Assembly: GCA_002110465.1 (NCBI GenBank)
Contig: NEED01000048.1
Span: forward strand, 1-64,000
Reading direction: 5' to 3'
Length of the DNA: 64,000 bases
Source of the DNA: an unicellular cyanobacterium SU2
GTDB lineage: Bacteria > Cyanobacteriota > Cyanobacteriia > Cyanobacteriales > Microcystaceae
Part shown: positions 6,084 through 51,591 of the stretch, in pieces
Layout of the letters: each line of letters starts with the position of its first letter
Position numbering within the stretch: position 1 is the stretch's first letter
Notes under the pieces: generated by a model
Database searches by the model: none
What the model saw: only the letters and a program-made list of their open reading frames with translations
What the model was told of the DNA's origin: nothing
Made by a program: the position numbers and the translations under genes

Positions 6084-6926
6084 TTAAACATTTTCCTCTA
6101 ACCACTGCCTTAAATCCTCTTCACTTCCGAAATTTAACAAGGCTTTTCCGAGATTTTCTAGTTGCTCGACGGACAGTCCTCGAATTTGTTCGGTGATAGA
6201 CGAGGGGAGTTCTGGGAAACGGGAGTTAAGAATGAGTAAAACTAAGTTAGCTCCTTCTTGTTGTCTTCCTTCAGAAAGTGCTTCTTGGTATACTTTGGTT
6301 TGTTTTAAATCGCTGAGTTCAAACATCGCTTCGATTTCCTCCCTACTTTTCTGGGGTAGTTTATAAACAATTATCTTCTGGATCAAATCAATCAATTGCT
6401 CTTGAATTTTTTGGTCAGTTACTTGAGTTTTAGTTTTTTCAATTAACTCCTTAGCTTGGGGAACAGCTTTCTGTTCTGATTGTACAACTAATTGTATCAT
6501 CCCGACTCCGAGGGAATTATCAGCCGCTTCTCCTAACTCGTCTAAATAGATACGAGTTAATTCGGGAAGGTTTAGCATATTTCTGAAGTTAAGAGGTTGT
6601 TCTCTTTCAATTTTTCGAGTCGGATAAATAACAACAATTTGCCAGGGATTTTGCGGTTTGTATTGCTTAAGGTACAACATAAATTCGCCGAACAATCGAT
6701 AATACAAATCCTCATCAGGTTGAAATTGAACTTCAACAAGAAACAAGGGTAAGTTAGGGTCTTCTACTTTGGGTAAAAATAGACCATCGAGTCGAAATGA
6801 AAGTTGTTTGATTTCTTGCGAAGCAAACTTATAGTTACTTTCCTTGATAGATGGTTCACCGATCAGATCGAAGAAACTACTTGGAAATTCGAGAAATATT
6901 TTATAAAAAATGCTATCTGTTTTCAA
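6084..6926 (-). CDS. DUF2887 / Rpn-family PD-(D/E)XK protein
   Basis: A 280-residue protein of the Rpn-like family that is abundant in cyanobacteria. The nuclease core lies near the N-terminus: FRLDGLFLP supplies the Asp and LFLVEVQFQ the E-x-Q version of E-x-K. A C-terminal DUF4351-type segment follows (residues 222-280, NLVLLILNSRFPELP and LENLGKALLNF). Relatives such as Escherichia coli RpnA cleave DNA and promote recombination. Copies spread within genomes and often accompany mobile DNA. Upstream lies a 365-base AT-rich gap that presumably holds its promoter. Confidence 0.8.
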   Translation of the reverse strand: MKTDSIFYKIFLEFPSSFFDLIGEPSIKESNYKFASQEIKQLSFRLDGLFLPKVEDPNLPLFLVEVQFQPDEDLYYRLFGEFMLYLKQYKPQNPWQIVVIYPTRKIEREQPLNFRNMLNLPELTRIYLDELGEAADNSLGVGMIQLVVQSEQKAVPQAKELIEKTKTQVTDQKIQEQLIDLIQKIIVYKLPQKSREEIEAMFELSDLKQTKVYQEALSEGRQQEGANLVLLILNSRFPELPSSITEQIRGLSVEQLENLGKALLNFGSEEDLRQWLEENV

Positions 6927-7291: not shown

Positions 7292-7714
7292 ATGACTAAT
7301 AACAACGAACAACGCTACGTAATCGAGGGCTTAACCGTAGGACAAAGTGCGAATCACCAAATAGCTGATGCGATAGCTTCCAAGTCAGCTTCTATGTTAG
7401 ACCAAGCACTTGAAGAAAACTTTGAAACCATTCTTGAAGCTAAGCTTAATCAAGCCGTTCAAGAAACACTAAATATTCATGCACAAAGGACTAAAAACTA
7501 TGCCAAAAAGTTTTTAGTAACTTCCAAGAATCGCTTAGCACAAAACTTGGTAGAAACACAGCACAATCATCGACTAGCATCGTTACAAGATAACTTAGAT
7601 CTCGCCGAAATCGAAGATTTTGACACGGATCTGCTCCCTGAAGTATCTCGGATTGGCGACGAAGCAGGAGCAATTGCCATCGAGACAAACGCTGATTCAT
7701 CTGTCGGATTTTAA
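7292..7714 (+). CDS. Hypothetical acidic helical protein
   Basis: A 140-residue protein starting at MTNNNEQRYV, without signal peptide or membrane segment. It is predicted largely helical, with a basic middle (RTKNYAKKFLVTSKNRLAQ) and an acidic C-terminus (LAEIEDFDTDLLPE). No recognised domain. Only seven bases after its stop a heptamer array begins, so the tail of the transcript would form part of the repeat hairpin. Confidence 0.5.
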   Translation: MTNNNEQRYVIEGLTVGQSANHQIADAIASKSASMLDQALEENFETILEAKLNQAVQETLNIHAQRTKNYAKKFLVTSKNRLAQNLVETQHNHRLASLQDNLDLAEIEDFDTDLLPEVSRIGDEAGAIAIETNADSSVGF

Positions 7715-7720
7715 AGAAAT

Positions 7721-8166
7721 AGGCAATAGGCAATAGGCAATAGTTTTTTTATTGATTTTATTGGAGGAAATATGTCAGACATTAAAGACTTTAGAGACTT
7801 AATAATTTGGCAAAAAGGAATGAAGATAGCTAAAGAATGCTATTTTCTTACAAAACAATTTCCCAAAGATGAATTATATGGAATGGTGCAGCAAATTAGA
7901 AGAGCGGCTACATCTATTCGGAGCCATATTTCCGAAGGCTATGGTAGAAGATCATCAGGAGATTATAAGCGTTTTTTAAATATTGCACAAGGCTCAATAA
8001 ACGAGCTGCAAACGCATTTACTTTTAGCTAAATCTGTCGGATTGTGTAGTCAGAAAGATATAGCATCTTTAATAGAAGAACTTCAATCAGAAACTCGAAT
8101 GATTATTGCTCTTATCAGAAAGTTGGAATAAAGACTTTCTATTGCCTATTGCCTATTGCCTATTCT
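7721..8166. repeat. Heptamer inverted pair around the four-helix gene
   Basis: The left arm (7721-7743) is three tandem copies of AGGCAAT; the right arm (8139-8166) is the reverse complement, CTATTGC repeated. Together they bracket a complete gene (7772-8131). The arms could pair in a transcript or a cruciform. The same heptamer, with small variations, recurs near 10.85, 11.12, 33.96, 34.44, 51.4 and 51.55 kb. Confidence 0.8.
7772..8131 (+). CDS. Four-helix-bundle protein (S23 / TIGR02436 type)
   Basis: A 119-residue member of the four-helix-bundle family first seen as open frames in intervening sequences of 23S rRNA genes. The signature DLIIWQKGMKIAKECY starts helix 1, and FPKDELYGMVQQIRRAATSIRSHISEGYGR covers the conserved centre in two adjoining segments. 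A good ribosome site (GGAGG) lies seven bases before the ATG. The function of this family is unknown, although the Avd protein of diversity-generating retroelements has the same fold. No reverse transcriptase or template repeat is visible here. The gene is enclosed by inverted heptamer arrays. Confidence 0.85.
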   Translation: MSDIKDFRDLIIWQKGMKIAKECYFLTKQFPKDELYGMVQQIRRAATSIRSHISEGYGRRSSGDYKRFLNIAQGSINELQTHLLLAKSVGLCSQKDIASLIEELQSETRMIIALIRKLE

Positions 8167-8210
8167 CTCCCCTCACTTTAACCTATCTCTGCACTACTAA
8201 TACTAAAACC

Positions 8211-8837
8211 ATGTTTACTCAACAACAAATTCTCGAAATCGCCTCACTTCCTGAAACCGCTTTTAAGTTTAAGGTTCATGTTGACACTCTTATCAAATTT
8301 TACAAGTGGATTACACAAGAATGGACATCTCAATCCTTAAAAGAACACAAAGCAAAGTATGAGCTTGATTGCCGAAGCACCGAAGGTAAGCTCAAATGCG
8401 CTCTCTATGCAGCTAAAGAGCTATCGACCCACTGTTTACCCCCTACCCCCTCACCGGTGGTCTCGCCGTCTGAAAGTCCTGTCAAAGAAGTACAAGTCAG
8501 CAAAATTCTTTGTCAAGCCATAGCACTTTTACCACCTGTACCAAAGACTAATGGGCTAGAAAAAGCACCTGCTTATCAGATCCTAGGAGAACCGATTTAT
8601 TTTGAGGAGCTAGTCCGTAATTATCGTCAATTAGTTCTAAAATGGCATCCTGATAACAATGAGTCCCCCTCTTCTGTTGGGCGAATGCAACTTATTACTA
8701 GCATTTACAAGGATTTAAAAGCTGAATGGTTCACAAAATATAGCCCCTTGATTCCTATTTCTCGTCTAGGCAAAGAGAATTTACTCAGAGCAATGTCTAA
8801 GGAATTTCCTTGGATTCCTGAGTCTTTTTGGCAGTGA
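8211..8837 (+). CDS. J-domain-like protein
   Basis: A 208-residue protein starting at MFTQQQILEI; the longer frame from 8106 reads through the repeat and is rejected. The C-terminal part carries a J-domain: YFEELVRNYRQLVLKW, then HPD at residues 146-148, then a helix with LITSIYKDLKAEW. J-domains stimulate the ATPase of Hsp70 (DnaK). The N-terminal 70 residues are helical and may choose the client; a Pro/Ser-rich linker (residues 77-92) joins them. Plasmid-borne J proteins can help replication initiators or hijack the chaperone, but no target is evident here. Confidence 0.7.
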   Translation: MFTQQQILEIASLPETAFKFKVHVDTLIKFYKWITQEWTSQSLKEHKAKYELDCRSTEGKLKCALYAAKELSTHCLPPTPSPVVSPSESPVKEVQVSKILCQAIALLPPVPKTNGLEKAPAYQILGEPIYFEELVRNYRQLVLKWHPDNNESPSSVGRMQLITSIYKDLKAEWFTKYSPLIPISRLGKENLLRAMSKEFPWIPESFWQ

Positions 8838-21401: not shown

Positions 21402-24400
21402 TCAGCTTAGCCCATCAAGTAAATGACCTTGATTCCCATCAATGACATCAATCGCCCCATTCATCGTTTTCTCAACGAATTCGAGGCAATCACGGCTAAC
21501 AGAGATCCGCTGCTTCCAGCCCTGCTCTAAGCCTTGCAGAAGCCAGACGGAGACGAATCGACGAGATTTCTTCGCGTTAGGGTCGATGTAAACCAACGAA
21601 CCAGGTTCGAGGATTTGTCCCTGATACTCCTGCTTGGTTCCGGTGTAACGGTACACATCATGGGGAATTGCAGTGGCCGCTACCCCGTCAATCTTGATTC
21701 GTTCTTCGGGTTTTAATGCTTTGTAGGCTTTTTTAGCCTGTTCACTATGCTGTTTTTGCAGCTTCCTTAGTTGCACCCATGTGGTACAAGCGAGGAATTG
21801 TGCCTTGAGTTTTTCAAGGGTGGGCGGTGACTCTTCAGGGATTAATTCAATGATTCGAGAGATCGCATTCCACCACCGTTCACCAAAATTCGGACAAGCC
21901 TCTTCTAACTGGTGAAAATAGTCATTAATGGTCGGCTCAAATTCTTTAGCATAAGCGAGTAATTCATCTTGAGTCGCAAAATTAGGGTCATTGGTGGATT
22001 CCCATTGAGTTAATAAATGAATCAGTTTAGTTACATCATCATTAACGATAAATTGCTCACTGGTGACTGGTGACTGGTGACTGATGACTGGTGAAGACGT
22101 TTGTTGGAATTGTTGCACAGGTGTAGAAAATTGTTGGAACCCTTGGTTCAACCAGGGTTGACCCATTGCTGCACTTGTTGCAACCGTTGGAGAGGTTAGA
22201 GGCAAGTTATTCAGTGGGGAAAAGACCCCTGCAACAATTCCAACAGTTCCAACAAAACTATTGAAAGATTGATGATAACTAGGTTTTATATGTTGCACAT
22301 TAGAGAATAAACCGCCAACAGTTTCCAACAAAGAGGACCTGACAGCCGAGGTTTCCTCGGTGTTTAAAAGGTCCGTGACGGAGGCTGGCCGTGAAAAGTT
22401 AGCAACAGCATTACCATCTGATGGTGGGGGTGATTTTGGGGGTTCACCATCACCCCCATCACCAAACATGGAGTCAATAACTAGAGCTAAACTACGTTTA
22501 TGAGTCACTAACTTGGCCTTACCCATGTCTGCAAGATCTTTAAACACCTTGTTAATATCAGGGGCTTTCATATTACGGAAAACGCCACTGCGAGTCGATT
22601 GAACCATCCGCACGGTTAAATATTTGGCTTTTCCTTGAACACGCTTCCCAATCTTCATGACTTGACGGTAGACAGGGGCTAAACTATCTTCACGGGCGGG
22701 GTCAGCGTTACCCCACGTCCGAATCATTTGCATTTGAGACAAGAAATACCGTTTAATTTTGATGGCTTTTTTAATGGCGATCGCAGGAACAATATTGGTG
22801 ACTTCACGGCCATTAACTAAGCAATTCATCCAATGCAGCCCCAAGGCAATCCGACAGACTTCTGCACTAGCTTTGGAGAGAACCGCCCGCCAGCCAGGTT
22901 GAAGGGTGTGCCAACGGGTTTCTTCCATTTCATTAATGAATGCTTGCAATAACCCCCGTCCTTGTTTATCTAACTCACATTGAATTTCAGGGGCGTTCAA
23001 CGCTTTGTTGTAGAGGTCATATAGTAAAGGAAAGACATCAACCCAAGGTTGCTCAAGGTTAGTTAAAACGTGCTTCTCAGTCCCCACACAGAAGTTAAAC
23101 CGCGCCCATTGTCCATCAGGGTCAGATAAATCTCCCATTTCTCCTAAGATAACGTCGGGTTGATAACCCCCAGTAATAGATACGGCGGTTTCTTCGACGA
23201 TGATGCGTTCAGATTTCAAGGAACGGGCGATCGCTTTATTATCGTAGAGGTTGTTGAGAAATTGGCGGTCATCGCCTTTACCTTGGCGATACATATTTTG
23301 CGCCCGTTGAATGGCGACGAGTTCTTCTTGGTGGATTAAGAGTCCATTGGGGTTATCTGCATGATTTTTGACAATGCCTTCACGCGAATATTCATTAATC
23401 ACCATGAATGCGTCGGATGCTTCAACATAATCATCGACTCTGGGTTTAGGACCACGTTCATCTCGATGCTGTTTTTCCCAGAGTTCAACAGCTTCATTAA
23501 ACCGTTGGGTTTCGAGTTTATGGGCGTTTAATCGTTCCTTCTGTAACTGGTAGAGGGGGTCAAGGAGAATACCTGAGACGATGCTTTTTCCTTCTCCCGA
23601 TTCCCCGACAGCGGCGACGTTGAGGGTGGCACGGAATTTACCAAAGTTTTTGATAAACAATGACCCTTTGATGCCAACTATTGAGGAGAAGATTGAGAGA
23701 ATGGTTAGGAAAAATTGGGGTTGAATTTTCTTGTTGACTCGACATAAATGCTCAAAGGCTTCTACTACTTCGGGAGAATCGTAGAATATATCTCGAAACG
23801 GTTGATATTCTTGGGAATCAATGGACTCTAATTGTTCTAGTTCCTGCTGACGTTCGGTGATGTTGTCTTCTCGTTCAAATTCAGAGAGTCGTTTAGAGGC
23901 GATCTCCCTGATCTCTTTGGCGTTAAAGTTGTCAAACAGTTTGGCTAATTTGTTGAGTTCTAAGTCTTGTTGCGCCTCAGTGAGTTTCTGGTTAAGAAGA
24001 ATCTCATCAATGCGCTCCATCATTAAGGTTTCAGCCGCTTGACCATATTCAGAGGATGATTGGTTATTTGATGGTTGTTGTGAGGTCTTAGACCCATTAA
24101 CTTCTTCTTTTTGCCTGTCTTGGTGAGCGTTCCCTTGCGCCGTAAGACGACGCGGGGTCTCACCGCTTTTGCTTTTTGCCTTTTGCCTTGGCGCATTGCG
24201 CCAATACCAACCCCGAATGCAAGCTTCAATTCCATCATCGCCACAACTGGGAGTAGGATTTTTCGCTTCACACCATTTCCAGCGCATTTCATCTTCAGAG
24301 GGGGTCATAGAAGATCGCCCACAGAATTCGCTGAATAAACTACGGGCAGAATCACTGAAGGATTGACCAATAGACTGCAAGTATCGTTCAACGGCGATTA

Positions 24401-29884: not shown

Positions 29885-30245
29885 TGAGTTCGGAATTCGG
29901 AGTTCGGAGGTCGGAGTTCGGAGTTATCGTGTAGAAGTATTCTCTTCATCAGAAAACTTGACTTTTGATCTTAAAAACTTTAACTATTTTCAACTAACTC
30001 TGAACCCCTAACCCCGAACTCAATTTGATGGAAGTCCCACTACGAATAAGTTGAGATGAGAGGATTCTTTCTATTCCACCTTTTTCATGGAGAAAGCGAC
30101 AAAGTTTGACAATTCTGACCAAACATTGAACATTGAACATTGAACATTTTGGTTTCAAGCCTCTCCCGTCTCGGAGAAAGAAGTTTGGGAGAGGGTTCAA
30201 GCCTACTTCCAAACGAATGATAAATGTTAAATGTTAAATGTTAAA
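29885..30245. repeat. Two heptamer hairpin elements in a gap
   Basis: The first element (29885-30023) has a TTCGGAG array on the left and inverted CCCCTAACCCCGAACTC on the right. The second (about 30120-30245) has ACATTGA heptamers (ATTGAACATTGAAC) on the left and the inverted, diverged TTAAATG array on the right, with a hairpin around GAGAAAGAAGTTTGGGAGAG between. Together with repeat B they fill the gap 29845-30380, where no gene is seen. Confidence 0.75.
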
Positions 30246-30292
30246 TGATAAATGAAATGACGGCAAACCTTAAAGTCCTTTCTTGAATAACT

Positions 30293-34476: not shown

Positions 34477-37400
34477 TTAATCAACTAAAGCTAATTCTTT
34501 GTCCTTTGATTTATTTTGTTGTTTGGTTCTTTGACCAACGAGTTTATTGAGTTCAGAGTTAATTTTCTGAAATTGTTTAACGTCTGTGTCTGTGAGATTA
34601 CCTTGGAGATTACCTTTGTTAAAGGTGAGAACTTCACCCCGTCCATCTTTGGCGGTAATTTTCAGGTTGCTATTATTGCTTTCAAAGCGGAAAGTATTCC
34701 CTTCAAAAATACGGGAACCTTGATTGTTTTTATCGCCAAAATTTTCAAGCAACCTAGTAGCTGCTGCTAGAGCTACAACGTTATTAAGGTCTTTTTTGTT
34801 CCCAGATTGTTTTTGTTGCAGAGCCAAGTTTTTGAAACTATTGTTAATCTTATTAGTTCTCTGACCAATTGAGTCTTTAATTTGACCTAATTGTTGAGAA
34901 AGGTTTTTTGAAACTTGTTTGACGGAATCTAAGATAGCTTTCGCTGAAGAAAGTAGAGGGTTTTTCTGAGAGTTTTGAGAGGAAAATTGTTGATTATTAG
35001 CCACGTTAATAGTTGGACTATAATTATCAGCCTCCTGCTGAGTGCCTTCTTCAATAGATGCAGGTTTATGTTGCTGGCTATCAAGATAACTATTATCTTG
35101 AGTCGGCGTATTTTCTTCTTCAAATTTAATAGGAATGACTACCGGTTGATTTTCTTGATTATTAGTAGTTACTTGGTTTTCATGACTTTTTGAATCAATG
35201 GTAATAGGTTGAGGTTGTGTGGGAGTTTCAACAGTATAACCAGGGTCATTTTGTTGAGAAGAATTTACTTCTGTATTAGGTGATGAATCAATGGTAATAG
35301 GTTGAGGTGGTTGAGGAGTTTCAACAGTATAACCAGGGGAGTTTTGTTGAGGGGAATTTACTTCTGGATGAGGTGATGAATCAATGGTAATAGGTTGAGG
35401 TGGTTGAGGAGTTTCAACAGTATAGCCAGGGGAGTTTTGTTGAGGGGAATTTACTTCTGTATTAGGTGATGAATCAATGGTAATAGGTTGAGGTGGTTGA
35501 GGAGTTTCAACAGTATAGCCAGGGGAGTTTTGTTGAGGGGAATTTACTTCTGGATGAGGTGATGAATCAATGGTAATAGGTTGAGGTGGTTGAGGAGTTT
35601 CAACAGTATAGCCAGGGGAGTTTTGTTGAGGGGAATTTACTTCTGTATTAGGTGATGAATCAATGGTAATAGGTTGAGGTGGTTGAGGAGTTTCAACAGT
35701 ATAGCCAGGGGAGTTTTGTTGAGGGGAATTTACTTCTGTATTAGGTGATGAATCAATGGTAATAGGTTGAGGTGGTTGAGGAGTTTCAACAGTATAACCA
35801 GGGTCGTCTTGTTTATTGCTTGCCAAATCGTGTTGTTCATTAAAGTTCTTTTGCTGAGTTAGTTCATTAACGCTCACGACACCATCTTGTAACTTAAAAA
35901 TCTCTTGGTCATTAACTTTGATAGTAAGATTTCTCTGAAAATCATCGGGAGCTTTACCTGGGGCTAAATCTAAAGCTTTATTGAGATAATTTAAGTCGTT
36001 TTTAGAAAGGTTATCTAGTTGAGGCGTAGAATCTTTTCCAAGAAATACTTCCTTTCCATCTAAGTCAATTTTAACATTAACAGGTTGGGAGAAGTTTAAT
36101 TTCATTTGTTGAGAAAGCTTCTTATTGTTTTGAAGTCTATCTAACAATTTTTTGAGGAGCTTTGTCGTGGTAAGAGCCGCTTCTTGAGAGACTTTTTGAA
36201 CATCCGAGGCTGACTTTTGGTTATGTTTATTTTGTTCAGGAGAAATCATAGTATTCTTGGGTGAATCGTTAGTTACTGGTAAAGTCTGTGATGGAGAAAT
36301 AGGGTTTAACTCAGAAACATTGGTCAAAGATTTTTGAGAAGATTTTTCGGTTGAGACTGAGACATTTGTGGAATTAAAATGTGCAACATTAGTTAGTGTT
36401 TGTGTCTTAAAAGCTTTTTCTTCGGTAGGATTTTCAATGATCCAAGCATTAACCGTTTCGGCAGCACGGGGGTCAATTTCTTTTGCTCGTCTAGCCACAG
36501 CTAACTCAAAAGCACTACTAGGATCTACTCGATACATTTCATTGAGGGGATTGTCTCCTTCTCGACGAACTACCAAAGGTTTGACTAATCCACCGAGTTC
36601 AATCATTGCCTGAGCATTTTGTTCAACTAGATTTTTGTCAAACTGTTGATTTGAATCACTGACAAGTTTTTTTACCGCTATTAAATTCTGTGACTTTTTA
36701 ATCTCCGGTTTATTCAGAGGCATTTGATTAGATTCAAGAGACAAAGTATTTTTATTGTTTCCATTTTTATGTTCTACTTTCTCCAATGATTGGTCGGCAA
36801 TTTCACTAAGTCTAGCTGCGGCTCCAAAGACTTTAGCTGAGTTGGAGATGTCTTGGGAGTTATTTTCTTCTAAAGCTTCAATTAATTTACCAAAACGAGA
36901 TGTACTTTTCCGAGAATTGTTTGACACTGGAGTTGATTTTTGTTGTCTGGCTTTCGGTTTTTCGACTGTGGGTTGAGCCTTCAGATAATCATGAAATTCT
37001 AGGATTTGTTCATCACTTAATTTGAGCCTAGAATCTACTCCGTAGTTGTCTAGAAGATGTTGCTTTCCTTGTTCTTTCTCCCAACCAATTCGAGACATTT
37101 CTTGGTTAATACCATTGATTAGCTCATCCCAGGTTATGGGATTTTCTGTCACAGATTTCCCCGAATTATTCAAAATATTTTGTGTTTGAGGGGGGGCAAC
37201 TTGTTTTAAGTTCTTTGTTGGGAAAGTAAAAGTTTGACCATCGTCAGCTTGGAGTTTAACAATCTCTTCTTTAGCTTGAACTTTGGGAGCTTCGATTAAA
37301 GTCGCTTCCATGCCATTTTTGAGATTTTTGACAGTAGGCGAAACTTCAGTTAACTGAACCCGTTCTCCTTTTTTTAAATTACTTTTTATTGGTTCCATTT

Positions 37401-48392: not shown

Positions 48393-48535
48393 CCTGAGTT
48401 CGACGTAAGGAAATCTATGGACAACTTGCAACAACCGAGGAGTCTGAAAACCTGATTCTATCGTTGAACAAATAATAACTCTGAACCCCGCTGCGTAGCA
48501 CTCCTAACCCCGAACTCCTAACACCGAACTCACGT
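48393..48535. repeat. Dispersed repeat A, copy 1
   Basis: Ninety-eight bases (48393-48490, beginning CCTGAGTTCGACGTAAGG) match 53360-53457 with about five mismatches. It continues into CCTAACCCCGAACTCCTAAC heptamers up to about 48535. These heptamers encode the last nine residues and the TAG of the VirB4-like gene. Confidence 0.85.
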
Positions 48536-51344
48536 CTGGTAAATATTTCGGTGCTACTACTTTTAAATTAGACCCCGACTGGATTGACTCTTTTAAAGCC
48601 ATTGAAAACCCAGAAATTGCCTCGTATTTGTCGGAATACGCTTTCAAGAAAAGTTCTCTGACCGCTTGTTCATCAGGATTATTGGCTACCAGGGCTAATT
48701 GCACAGGTGCGGGATAGTAACGGCAAATACTGATAGTTCCACTGTCATCAAGCAGCCAATTGGTGTACAATCCATAAGCTTTGGGATAGAAATTGGCACA
48801 TAAGGCTACTAACTCTTCTGGATACCCTAGAATCTCAATGAAACTCTTGATAGCTGTTGGTTGTATTCGTCCAATAATTCTAGTGTTCAGGTTCTGAAAA
48901 ATTTGTTGTCCCGAAGCTGAATTGTAGATAGAATTGGGGTCTTGAGCCGAAAGCACAACTCTAACTCCTGATTTAGAGCCATTAGAGATAATTGAGGCGA
49001 CTAAATCGACAATAGAGGGGAATTTAAAGAGAATAGGGCTTTCATCAATAAAAAAGATACTAATGGGAAACGCCATCGCTCGTCTTAGTGCAGCAGCGTA
49101 GGCAACCAAGGAGAGAATAGCTGCATCCTCGTTTTCGGAGATTTGGCGCAGTGCCAGAACCATCAAGGCTGCATTGGTAGGAACAGAGGAAGGCTTTGAT
49201 ATAGCCTCTCCCACCCGACTTTCTGTCCAGTATTGCAACCGAAGACTGATTTGCTCGAGGGCTTTGGGCAGAAGGGATGATGTATTCCCAAAAGGAATGG
49301 TATTGTGATTGCTTGTTGACGTCGAGCGTAGTCGAGACGTCAGTTGTTCAAAAGCCCCTGCTTTAACCAAATCTCGGAAATAAGCGAGAAAGTCTTTTAA
49401 AGTAGGCATTAATTCCCAATTAGACGACCCTAAGCCCCCTAATTCTGCTGTTTCATACCTTTGTTGAATAGTGGTATCCCCGAAGAATCGGTTCATACTT
49501 TGGTATAAAACCGTCCTAACGGTCTGGTTAAGGAGAATATCAGGGCTTTCTCCCACTACCATTACTTGAAGGCAAGAAACGAGGAAATCCTTGTAATCCT
49601 CAAACCGTTCAAGCCGTTTATTTTCTGGTAGACGACGTAAATCAGGGCGATCAAACAAATTAACCGATTTCTCCCCTACATCAAAATAGGCTCCCTGATT
49701 GCCCATGAATTCGGTATAAGTGGTGTAAGTAGAAGTTCCATCGGGTTTGGGGTAATCGATCGCCACTACAGGAATGTTTCTAGGCAATGCCTGGGTGAGG
49801 ACACCCCCGACTAACACGGATTTCCCGGAGCGGGTTGTGCCAAAAACCCCGATATGACGATGTTTGTCGTTTCCTGCGTTGAACAAGTCAATAAATAAAG
49901 GGGTTCCCCCGTCTTCCCCGATTAATTCGAGTCCCTCCGTATCTCGACTATGAGTTTTGATTAGGGGCAAGAAACCTGGCACTTCCCCACTCAGATAGAG
50001 TTGTCGTCTCCCGACAAACGGGCTACCTAAAAGTTTTTCGTCTACGATGGGCAGGGTTTGTCGCCACATATCCCAAGTGATGTGACGTTCTCGTACTACC
50101 CACGCCGGACGATGAAAGCAATTTTCTATATAGCGAATGGCTTCTTCTAAATCCTCCAAAGTTTTGCGTTTAACTAAGATGGTGGTAGCTAAGTAAAATG
50201 CTGTCTCCCCAGATAGCATTCTTTCTTGCGCTTCTTCCCCGAATCTCGCTGAAAACTTAGAAGCCACGTCAGCTTCATTTCTCTCAGAGAGGTATTTGGC
50301 CTTTGATGTGGCTTGTTTGGTAACTCTCCCCATTTTCCAAGCCACGCGCTTGCTGTTTCCGGCTTCAAGTTGAGTAATGATTTCGGTGTCAGTAACCAGA
50401 TCTTTGGCGACAATATCCCAGAGATAGTGGAGTTGAGAGCGTTTGTTAGCCCACCCCCCAGGTTTTTCCCAAAAGGTTAATACACCGAGATATTTGTCCC
50501 CCAATTTGACATATTCTTTGTGAAATTCGGGTTCAGTTTCTACCATTAAGGTGGTTCCGTGAACCTGGGATTTAACCTCCTCTGTTACCCCAGACGGTGA
50601 GACTATTAGTTGTTGCGGAACTTTTATTGGTGGCGATTGATTAATTCTTTGCCATTGATAGTCCCACAATTGTTGTGGTGTCAGGGGTTTGATGCGTAAA
50701 CCTAGTTTGATTTCTAGAATTTGCTTCCAGTGAACGAAACCGTCTCCCCAGGCTCGTTTAAGCAATTTCTTGATTTGATTGGTTTTGACACGCCCTGATT
50801 GATTTTTGAATTTGTTCCAGATTTCATTGCACCTATCGAGTGCTTTATCGAGCCAGTCACGATGTTTGCCCCCCGACGAAGCTTGGTAGGTACAGAATAT
50901 GTGCAATGATTTGGGCTCTCTCAAACCCTCACGAGACAGTTGACGAATTCTACCTCGCTCCCCAGCTAGGAGGAATCGCAACTCATCACTTGGAGAGTCT
51001 TTGATTAATTTTTGCAAATGTTTTTGTCTGTCGGCATCTGATTGATATGCACCTAAGTGGAAAGTGATTCTTTCCCCTACAGGGAGATCTTTTAGTCCTC
51101 CTTCAATCAAATCAAAGGTTTTGTTCAGTTTGGAGTCGCTTAGGAAGCTGTGAATGCCGGGGGTTGAAAAACCGAAAACTAAGGTAAAAGGCGATTTTGG
51201 GTTTTTCTTAAGTAGATATGCCCCTACATTCATGCCCCGAAAGCGGAATGATACCATTGTCTGATAATGAACCGAATCCTCAAATGGTTGCAAAACGACA
51301 GTCTGCCTTTTGATTTTTGGTTTGGTGGCAGTAGCTCTTGGCAT
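48504..51344 (-). CDS. VirB4/TraC-like T4SS ATPase
   Basis: A 946-residue protein. Walker A GTTRSGKS lies near residues 499-506 and Walker B is SIFFIDESPILF; the C-terminal domain contains VVLSAQDPNSIY. VirB4 powers pilus assembly and substrate transfer. The frame is open to 51503, but those residues are heptamer repeat read-through; GGAG six bases before the ATG at 51344 marks the start. The last residues (VSSVLGVRG) also come from a repeat. VirB4 is the most conserved T4SS marker, and the cyanobacterial mating-pair type (MPF-C) is a likely assignment. Confidence 0.9.
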   Translation of the reverse strand: MPRATATKPKIKRQTVVLQPFEDSVHYQTMVSFRFRGMNVGAYLLKKNPKSPFTLVFGFSTPGIHSFLSDSKLNKTFDLIEGGLKDLPVGERITFHLGAYQSDADRQKHLQKLIKDSPSDELRFLLAGERGRIRQLSREGLREPKSLHIFCTYQASSGGKHRDWLDKALDRCNEIWNKFKNQSGRVKTNQIKKLLKRAWGDGFVHWKQILEIKLGLRIKPLTPQQLWDYQWQRINQSPPIKVPQQLIVSPSGVTEEVKSQVHGTTLMVETEPEFHKEYVKLGDKYLGVLTFWEKPGGWANKRSQLHYLWDIVAKDLVTDTEIITQLEAGNSKRVAWKMGRVTKQATSKAKYLSERNEADVASKFSARFGEEAQERMLSGETAFYLATTILVKRKTLEDLEEAIRYIENCFHRPAWVVRERHITWDMWRQTLPIVDEKLLGSPFVGRRQLYLSGEVPGFLPLIKTHSRDTEGLELIGEDGGTPLFIDLFNAGNDKHRHIGVFGTTRSGKSVLVGGVLTQALPRNIPVVAIDYPKPDGTSTYTTYTEFMGNQGAYFDVGEKSVNLFDRPDLRRLPENKRLERFEDYKDFLVSCLQVMVVGESPDILLNQTVRTVLYQSMNRFFGDTTIQQRYETAELGGLGSSNWELMPTLKDFLAYFRDLVKAGAFEQLTSRLRSTSTSNHNTIPFGNTSSLLPKALEQISLRLQYWTESRVGEAISKPSSVPTNAALMVLALRQISENEDAAILSLVAYAAALRRAMAFPISIFFIDESPILFKFPSIVDLVASIISNGSKSGVRVVLSAQDPNSIYNSASGQQIFQNLNTRIIGRIQPTAIKSFIEILGYPEELVALCANFYPKAYGLYTNWLLDDSGTISICRYYPAPVQLALVANNPDEQAVRELFLKAYSDKYEAISGFSMALKESIQSGSNLKVVAPKYLPDVSSVLGVRG

Positions 51345-51362
51345 GATTATCTCCATTGGGGA

Positions 51363-51591
51363 GAGGCAATGGGCATTCTTGTAATGGGCAATGGGCAATG
51401 GGCAATGGGCAATGGGCAATAGTCGGATTGGTTGATAGGAATCAATAAACTTGTTTCCCCCTTGTTTTGTCCACATTTTGGCTAAAAATCTCATTAAAGA
51501 CATTTTTTTGTTTATTTTGGCAAAAAAACTATTTTTAGCTTTTTATGTTCCCTATTGCCTATTGCCTATTCCCTATTGCCTATTCCCTTGA
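51363..51591. repeat. Heptamer inverted pair between VirB4 and VirB3
   Basis: Left arm: six or more GGCAATG heptamers (51363-51422). Right arm: TTGCCTATTCCCTATTGCC and similar (51548-51591). The interior of about 120 bases is AT-rich and has no gene. The hairpin would lie in the operon message directly before the VirB4 ribosome site and may affect its translation. Confidence 0.8.

Follow-up and report, generated by a model that had tools for sequence, protein, structure and literature searches.

An S23 gene between inverted heptamer arrays

The window analyzed here is a 64,000-nucleotide stretch of contig NEED01000048.1 from unicellular cyanobacterium SU2 (assembly GCA_002110465.1). It contains a cassette in which a gene for a four-helix-bundle protein of the S23 family lies between two inverted tandem arrays of a 7-nt word. 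A first-pass annotation, made from the letters of the sequence, had described an S23-type gene enclosed by inverted heptamer arrays at 7721-8166. The element is there as described, a perfect 26-nt pair around an intact 119-aa gene, with ends that had been placed 2 to 3 nt off the actual span of 7718-8164. The cassette and its immediate surroundings consist of the following features.

7292..7714, plus strand: upstream open reading frame (ORF), codirectional, 140 aa, from the ORF list
7718..7743, plus strand: left arm, tandem heptamer array (AATAGGC)3.7, 100% period-7
7763..7767, plus strand: GGAGG, 4 nt before the ATG, read from the sequence and presumed by us to be Shine-Dalgarno-like
7772..8131, plus strand: S23 / 23S_rRNA_IVP / TIGR02436 four-helix-bundle gene, 119 aa, in the loop, from profile matches
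8139..8164, plus strand: right arm, (CTATTGC)3.7, 100% period-7
7718..8164, plus strand: whole cassette, arms plus S23 gene
8211..8837, plus strand: downstream ORF, codirectional, 208 aa, with a borderline DnaJ-domain match (28.0 bits, cut-off 27.8)

The right arm is the perfect reverse complement of the left, each being 26 nt long, and the left arm starts 3 nt past the upstream stop codon, with more G than C on the coding strand. RNA spanning 7710-8172 has a predicted fold of -126 kcal/mol (z -4.99, 100 shuffles) in which the left arm is paired with the right. The upstream ORF has no match in Pfam and NCBIfam at E 0.001. Heptamers abound in the window, which holds 13 period-7 arrays compared with 0, 0, 0, 1, 1, and 0 arrays of periods 5, 6, 8, 9, 10, and 11, and a 20-nt piece of the arm, allowed up to 3 mismatches, gave 19 matches (overlapping registers and other arrays counted) versus 0.00 expected from 100 shuffles. 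We defined a strict pair as two inverted arrays of at least 18 nt with at most 1 difference and a gap of 10 to 1500 nt. The window has two such pairs, and only the one at 7718-8164 has an open frame of at least 60 codons between its arms. The earlier statement that this is the only pair with an intact gene inside thus stands under the strict definition; loose pairs, such as that at 30122-30255, fall outside it.

The S23 protein belongs clearly to its family, scoring 126.4 bits with PF05635 (cut-off 33.8) and 120.4 bits with TIGR02436 (cut-off 24). The only other hit in a Pfam search was the bAvd profile at 21.9 bits, below its cut-off of 40, and no nuclease, transposase, or RAYT (Y1 transposase) family was matched. 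A single-sequence structure model, the best of five, has four helices and a predicted local distance difference test (pLDDT) score of 83.4; the other models scored 72 to 49. It resembles the chains of 2gsc (Xcc0516), with template modeling (TM) scores of 0.60 to 0.69 and E values of 2e-6 to 5e-5, and also matches 2rld (BT_0352). The likeness to Avd (4dwl) is weaker (TM 0.60, probability 1.00, E 0.18, about 8% identity), as is that to chains of a diversity-generating retroelement (DGR) ribonucleoprotein. The Avd fold that the first-pass annotation had attributed to S23-type proteins is therefore borne out at this level, and the likeness of PF05635 to Avd is already published, as an excerpt of PMC10053308 records. 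The function of S23 proteins is given as not known in the excerpted text of PMC4990558.

Inverted arms recur around S23 genes

Flanks were compared by Smith-Waterman alignment of the 250 nt to the left of each gene with the reverse complement of the 250 nt to the right, and loci scoring at least 30 were called armed. Pseudo-elements in the same loci, mismatched flanks of different loci, and the direct orientation served as controls. The scores describe sequence likeness and are not proof of function, and loci that share an orthologous site within a genus are not independent. Genomes and loci are cited below by G and L numbers where they must be told apart.

A PF05635 search of the window's own genome gave four S23 genes, all with inverted arms; their words are AATAGGC, AGTGAAT, CAGTCAC/ACTGGTG, and CAAAAGT, with flank scores of 52, 37, 43, and 58. 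An S23 match (PF05635, E 0.001) was obtained in 114 of the 244 genomes of the window's phylum. The phylum set comprised 80 loci of the window's class (4 from its own genome, 16 given as loci, and 60 fetched) and 14 of families f30/f36, and 93 of the 94 could be scored; it represents the top of the E-value order among the matches listed and is not a random draw. In the window's class 58 of 79 scored loci had arms, as did 13 of 14 in families f30/f36, compared with 1/180 pseudo-elements, 20/465 pairs of mismatched loci, and 9/93 loci in direct orientation. This is the survey of cyanobacterial S23 genes that the first-pass annotation had proposed as a check. An absence of arm enrichment at other S23 genes, which it had named as the outcome that would speak against a link, is not what was seen; the result strongly favors the link, also in array density. 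Within 250 nt of S23, period-7 arrays occur at 3.95/kb versus 0.235/kb farther away in the window's class, a 16.8-fold difference.

A scan of a collection of GTDB genomes with seven query sequences extended this beyond the phylum. The best 80 of at least 588 confirmed S23 loci were used, a sample biased toward Bacteroidota and toward sequences related to the seven queries. Other taxa included Planctomycetota, Ignavibacteria, Geobacter, Terriglobia, Clostridia, Cloacimonadota, Nitrospirales, Gracilibacteria, and more, and two loci were from Gastranaerophilales. Arms were found at 49 of the 79 scorable loci (pseudo-elements 0/219, mismatched 9/395, direct 10/79), and period-7 arrays were 13.8-fold denser near S23 than farther away (1.96/kb versus 0.141/kb). 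The third set, with 60 loci taken from 10 genomes, partly overlaps the collection scan and includes weaker S23 matches; 31 of its loci were armed.

The strict definition gives the sharpest contrast between S23 and other genes. Strict pairs enclose S23 in 37/80 loci of the window's class, 2/14 of families f30/f36, and 8/80 of the collection scan, and they enclose 0/729 other ORFs (0/270 of those of 80 to 200 aa) in 864 kb. A candidate counterexample, the strict pair of L308 (gap 1054), was rejected; its 246-codon ORF is only partly bracketed and runs through one array.

Seven of the 80 collection-scan loci (L121, L122, L134, L159, L136, L117, and L129) carry more than one S23 profile match each, and cassettes may cluster. 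Relatives of the window S23 protein are also carried by 24 plasmid records, mostly cyanobacterial, 9 of them typed as conjugative. Among viral contigs, 15 pattern matches for S23 included no relative.

Unit length, polarity, and word of the arms

The arms have a preferred unit and a polarity. Across 120 armed loci the best period was 7 in 96, 8 in 19, 9 in 4, and 10 in 1, a preference that shuffled arms lacked, and in 109 of these loci G outnumbered C in the coding strand of the upstream arm. Arrays of period 8 are likewise concentrated near S23, 13.5-fold in the collection scan (15 arrays) and 20.5-fold in the window's class (26 arrays), and those of period 9 by 2.5- and 6.3-fold, respectively, with 4 arrays each; periods 5 and 6 contributed at most one array per set. 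Armed loci of families f30/f36 have period 8 ahead of period 7 (7/13 versus 4/13). In S23 proteins of the AEAWRKRRY type the best period was other than 7 in 5 of 6 armed loci (L082 and L102 being barely periodic), compared with period 7 in 50 of 52 loci of the other S23 proteins of the window's class, and the contrast holds within one genome (L062 versus L101 in G181). This link of unit length to S23 subfamily was spotted post hoc from few data. Stop triplets were considered as a cause of the 7-nt unit and set aside: 39 of 75 distinct words hold one versus 32.4 +- 3.1 after shuffling, a weak effect and not a general one.

The two arms of a locus agree with each other, the strongest left and right words differing by at most 1 base in 59 of the 76 loci with arrays on both sides. 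Between loci of different genomes, words lie within 1 base of each other in 12/12 comparisons at 90% protein identity or more, in 57/126 at 70 to 90%, and in 105/4942 below 55%. Arm-word distance falls as protein identity rises (Mantel r -0.517, 0/5000 permutations; 40 dereplicated loci of the window's class); the test compares different families only, and some shared descent remains. Over all 75 loci the same test is weaker (r -0.145, 3/5000 permutations). Read by eye, the words are AGGCAAN or AGGGAAC-like beside KDLIIWQKGM-type S23, AGGAGTC beside EDLIVWQKAHQF-type S23, and AGGTGAC beside KNDFAH-type S23. The genes themselves are under purifying selection, with 63% of differences at codon position 3 in 23 pairs. 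In these comparisons gene and arms behave like a single unit, the arm word and probably the unit length following the protein.

Position relative to neighboring genes

S23 genes between codirectional neighbors lie in the sense orientation in 117 cases and antisense in 14. The arm starts close to the end of the upstream gene: relative to the stop codon of a same-strand upstream ORF the median start is +4 nt, 73/102 lie within -40 to +20, 33 overlap the stop, and 13 lie beyond 100 nt. At the other side, the right arm ends a median of 23 nt ahead of the next ATG (57/98 within -20 to 30). S23-less arrays in the sampled regions favor the same place more weakly, with 29/109 there versus 59/1362 random non-ORF positions. 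The position at the stop codon is more telling than the sense orientation for setting S23 apart. An Rfam scan of 20 S23 loci gave no rRNA match.

Neighbors identified with Pfam show the kind of gene pair that a cassette separates:

L002, in the window's own genome: cas6, S23, cas4
L390: recJ, S23, a cytidylyltransferase-like gene (presumably nadD)
L145: moxR, S23, DUF58
L053: NUDIX/NrtR-like gene, S23, NAD synthase

An excerpt of PMC5524665 places a four helix bundle gene of Flavobacterium columnare between guanylate kinase and nicotinic acid mononucleotide adenylyltransferase. In L390 the upstream neighbor is recJ, and the two sites have one side only in common. The tie between S23 genes and heptamer arms also suggests that many genes annotated as four helix bundle protein within operons are insertions and not operon members.

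Gain and loss between close relatives

Sites were compared among congeners; the ends of L066, the hairpins at S23-less sites, and the relatives of miniature inverted-repeat transposable elements (MITEs) were read by eye. At L066, all 15 other congeners align both flanks without space for the gene. In seven of them (G264, G066, G147, G058, G260, G097, and G261) the left and right flanks are directly adjacent and the junction is free of heptamers; the rest carry between a few and about 180 additional nt. The filled copy has ends of the form GTAAG[A/G]ATTCAGGAGTC and the octamer GATTTTAA on both sides, and the empty sites have one similar octamer, which gives clean empty sites together with an apparent 8-bp duplication. 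At L053 two genomes, G058 and G239, have the cassette, and in G044 the contigs stop at the site; both flanking genes are present, with gaps of 36 to 111 nt, in the remaining 13 of 16 congeners, and some of the cassette-less congeners (G121, G066, and L208-L213) retain short arm-like pieces. In a tree of the L053 flanks, G239 joins the cassette-less G147 at full support, and two changes are needed if G044 is counted as filled.

Two further sites hold more than the alternatives of filled and empty. Of 60 genomes compared at the moxR|DUF58 site of Chryseobacterium, 16 could be aligned along the full length of the element, counted from the alignment and leaving gene intactness aside, and G326 retains a broken copy. 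Ten of the remaining genomes were read and none had S23; a few others have gaps wide enough for something else. G337 and G308 are without a hairpin by eye. G327, G296, G291, and G301, from the genus of Chryseobacterium sp. JM1, carry a short S23-less hairpin with the word AGGGATT or close to it, and the other four hold a different short sequence that is partly arm-like. Elsewhere in each of those four hairpin-bearing genomes there is an S23 gene with AGGGATT-like arms, with flank scores of 22, 18, 17, and 17, under the threshold of 30. At the L081 site (genus g3), 7 of 12 genomes align throughout, and in three read closely, G229 (flanks 98% identical), G277, and G275, a piece of the left arm is present and different heptamer arrays come after it in place of S23. 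Because both sites differ in this way among relatives, single sites can be said to host changing heptamer arrays, with or without S23.

In a search of 28 other genomes for an empty site of the window copy itself, none aligned both flanks. Matches to the flanks in those 28 genomes were heptamer arrays, an S23 piece (G246), a 123- to 126-nt stretch of the DnaJ-like gene at 69 to 70% (G253), and other short pieces.

Terminal inverted repeats and dispersed arrays

The most multiplied S23 family seen is that of G113. Ten S23 copies there share the left end TAACTGACGTTACGCA; the right end TGCGTAACATCAG, or a one-base variant of it, was found in eight, and in seven of these eight complete copies one 7-mer recurs on the two sides (six with TTANTAA, one with TAATTAA), L089 being the exception. 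Nine of the ten S23 copies match only positions 1-87 or 1-92 of the 106-position profile. Of three further left ends of the TAACTGACGTTACGCA type in G113, two go with shortened S23 copies and one with an internal deletion (L290, L296, and L298). By eye, S23-less relatives of the element exist with heptamer arms at L286 (G181, 236 bp) and L288 (G103) and, at L295 (58 bp), without arms. From the shared ends, the 7-mer duplications, and the S23-less relatives, it appears that this family at least travels as cargo of an element with terminal inverted repeats (TIRs). Elsewhere, TIRs with an apparent target duplication were seen by eye at L066, and L062 and L063 lie inside a longer outer inverted repeat, which begins GGCTCTTC and is presumably ISL3-like. 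At the window copy no outer TIR is visible by eye.

In 27 of 60 cases an array dispersed away from S23 shares its word with S23 arms of the same genome, versus 16.8 +- 3.7 with shuffled genome labels (27 is reached in 13/2000 shuffles). Dispersed AGGAGTC arrays were tried as S23-less hairpins and did not qualify, the 20 that were fetched being mostly single-orientation arrays. Few arrays form strict inverted pairs, with 8 such pairs in 864 kb. At L266-L285 many arrays stand in a fixed order, (AGGAGTC)n and then (GAAGAAG)n-like, often beside arrays of another word. In G022, a genome with no PF05635 match, L307, L314, and L332 hold 10, 16, and 6 arrays per 20 kb. The cassette at L004 (1380-1890), which by eye may split a small gene, has arms that continue outward as a CACGCCCTTCGG / CCGAAGGGCGTG inverted pair. 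The palindrome around L004 was rejected as a dispersed element, CGCCCTTCGG being absent from the window, and ACGCCCTTCGG with its complement 2 to 30 nt apart being absent from the genome.

Relation to known elements

The nearest counterparts are the intervening sequences of 23S rRNA, for which excerpts of PMC4990558 describe an S23 ORF, inverted repeats, and an RNase III cut at the stem, including a 28-bp stem in Coxiella and a reading as selfish elements. Like those of Coxiella, Leptospira, and others, the window cassette has an S23 ORF inside terminal inverted repeats within a host transcript, the stem here being predicted. It differs from them in lying between protein ORFs and in having arms that are tandem arrays of varying word, and 0/20 scanned loci are in rRNA. 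The first-pass annotation had called such intervening sequences mobile. Mobility is one among several hypotheses in the excerpted text of PMC4990558, which credits Ralph and McClelland (1993) with the proposal that the ORF product brings it about.

In their 7-nt tandem arrays and intergenic location the arms resemble cyanobacterial short tandemly repeated repetitive sequences (STRRs), the GGGAATC repeats of Xanthomonas, and the GGGGA(C/T)T repeats of Nostoc. Excerpts report 70 and 75 convergent pairs of the Xanthomonas repeat (PMC4692102) and cyanobacterial hairpins of 7-bp repeats between genes (PMC2670836). In Luteimonas locus L138 the S23 arms contain GGGAATC; a word search of PMC4692102 yielded nothing for S23, XCC0516, "four helix," or "intervening." REPIN/RAYT systems, as excerpted in PMC3116915, likewise have a gene close to a repeat in inverted copies, and doublets of that repeat occur as dispersed hairpins. 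They are unlike in that S23 is a four-helix bundle without a transposase match and the dispersed arrays persist without S23. On dispersal as inverted doublets the observations are mixed: words are shared with the S23 arms as given above, few arrays stand in strict inverted pairs, and density does not depend on S23. Avd of diversity-generating retroelements shares the fold of the S23 model and differs in the low identity and sub-cut-off bAvd score. The BrickBuilt MITE of Porphyromonas gingivalis likewise has tandem repeats in a small inverted-repeat element, with a unit of 23 nt, and its abstract has no mention of an S23 gene (PMC4596501). No link between S23 or "four helix bundle" genes and heptamer repeats was found in the titles or abstract starts of the papers listed in our searches, in which subscription papers were mostly outside reach.

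The heptamer repeats of cyanobacteria and Xanthomonas lack a settled origin or role, as S23 proteins lack a stated function, and the tie between them gives each a testable partner. For every S23 gene the neighboring arm word can be taken as its predicted binding site, and specificity could be studied on many natural pairs.

Interpretation

We consider it probable, with some reserve, that a widespread type of stem-loop cassette is represented in the window by one copy, and that this cassette is a relative of the S23-encoding intervening sequences of 23S rRNA that stands free and has heptamer arms. Such cassettes would be mostly selfish and perhaps sometimes long resident. The sequences show that S23 genes of many groups have such arms far above controls and that arms and gene go together. 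They also show a polar cassette that lies mostly in sense, as a rule begins at the stop codon, and comes and goes among close relatives. In the transcript the arms would pair into a long stem directly behind the stop codon of the upstream gene. RNase III would then cut the paired arms, by analogy with the 23S rRNA intervening sequences, and cutting would free the S23 message while the operon stays functional and tolerates the cassette. The S23 protein, which forms a five-fold ring in the solved relative and has the Avd fold, may bind its cognate stem or its own RNA, and such binding would keep the arms complementary. The cassette DNA is probably moved, at least sometimes, by foreign machinery, some cassettes lying inside TIRs with apparent target duplications. 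The RNase III cutting, the S23 binding, and the way in which the window copy moved are steps that we infer.

Several observations weigh against this account. Arms fell below the threshold at 21/79 loci of the window's class, 1/14 of families f30/f36, 30/79 of the collection scan, and 29/60 of the third set, so that roughly a third to half of S23 loci outside the best set miss it. Ordinary neighbor pairs in the same loci are also codirectional (209/272), and the armed loci of the window's class include 28 sense, 8 antisense, 10 convergent, and 7 divergent arrangements. The correlation of arm word with protein can stem from shared descent of one DNA unit, it is near background under about 60 to 70% identity, and there is a host effect: below 45% protein identity the arm distance is 2.45 within a genome (n = 11) versus 3.28 between genomes (n = 2252). 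Arrays are about as dense without S23, the counts per 400 kb being 49 for 8 genomes that lack a PF05635 match (G022 and G060 supplying 45 of the 49) and 58 for 10 genomes that have one, and the idea that S23 spreads the arrays failed this test. Short heptamer hairpins or arm vestiges at several S23-less sites make an arm-first history possible. Complementary arms might also be explained by processes at the DNA level, for example template switching. Continuity with rRNA intervening sequences would be argued from protein family and anatomy, because none of the 20 scanned loci lies in rRNA.

The first-pass annotation had left open whether the protein is the agent or a passenger of the heptamer elements. 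The heptamer hairpins could be MITE-like elements moved by DDE transposases, with S23 genes repeatedly caught in their loops and unrelated to the arms. We think this rather unlikely as a general account. It fits the multiplied S23 family of G113, whose copies share an end and mostly the same 7-mer on both sides, which multiplied although nine of ten copies match a partial profile, and whose element has S23-less relatives; the longer repeat around L062 and L063 and the S23-independent density of arrays agree with it. It leaves unexplained why no other ORF among 729 is enclosed, why the association recurs in many phyla, and why word and unit length are tied to S23 subfamily. Nor is an outer TIR visible by eye at the window copy, and a transposase with these ends turned up nowhere, none having been searched for. 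A little less likely still is that S23 elements are autonomous masters, comparable to RAYTs with their REPINs, and that S23-less arrays and hairpins of the same word in the same genome are non-autonomous derivatives. The excess of dispersed arrays with the words of their own genome's S23 arms speaks for this, as do the AGGGATT-type hairpins of G327, G296, G291, and G301 alongside AGGGATT-like S23 arms elsewhere in the genome. Those four S23 loci, however, all score below the threshold and are orthologous, amounting to one event, and a chance AGGGATT match is estimated at about one in five (about 2% for each comparison, each genome having some ten S23 genes). Array density does not depend on the presence of S23, S23 has no nuclease or transposase family match, and word sharing may reflect host or descent. 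S23 as agent of heptamer arrays in general was thus not borne out; judging from the sequences, "passenger" fits the G113 family, and "agent" may apply to the other S23 families.

Two other explanations fare much worse. That the arms are ordinary terminators or mRNA-stability hairpins of the two neighboring genes is very improbable. Heptamer hairpins at hupS-hupL have been suggested to affect transcript stability or translational coupling (an excerpt of PMC2670836), but here the predicted fold pairs left with right arm across S23 and the two arms of a locus agree. That S23 merely sits by chance between two arrays in heptamer-rich cyanobacterial genomes can practically be dismissed: arrays are common, with 13 in the window, and there is a mild host effect on arm words, against the 16.8-fold and 13.8-fold enrichments and the absence of other enclosed ORFs.

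Beyond the stem-loop cassette reading, we tentatively suggest a broader one, which we hold to be possible rather than likely. S23 proteins would be readers of short tandem words, each subfamily with its own 7- or 8-nt word, and gene plus arms would make up an ancient class of mobile stem-loop elements, spread across the bacteria, which enter operons at stop codons and are tolerated through RNA excision. The 23S intervening sequences, the cyanobacterial STRRs, and the Xanthomonas GGGAATC repeats would be branches or leftovers of this class. With the Avd fold in mind, movement via an RNA intermediate with a reverse transcriptase in trans is conceivable by analogy.

Other arrays and features of the window

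The second strict pair, at 51383-51588, has the words AATGGGC and CCTATTG around a 130-nt loop and overlaps the start of a large minus-strand ORF (48504-51503). At 30122-30255, an AACATTG array faces AATGATA/AATGTTA arrays in a looser inverted pair, and an (ACTGGTG)n array at 22059-22094 shares its word with the right arm of S23 locus L003 of the same genome. About 800 nt upstream of the cassette, on the minus strand, lies a DUF2887/DUF4351 gene (6084-6926), which matches the NCBIfam Rpn family recombination-promoting nuclease at 76 bits (cut-off 52). A minisatellite at 35191-35803 has 6.6 copies of a 93-bp unit with 96% matches.
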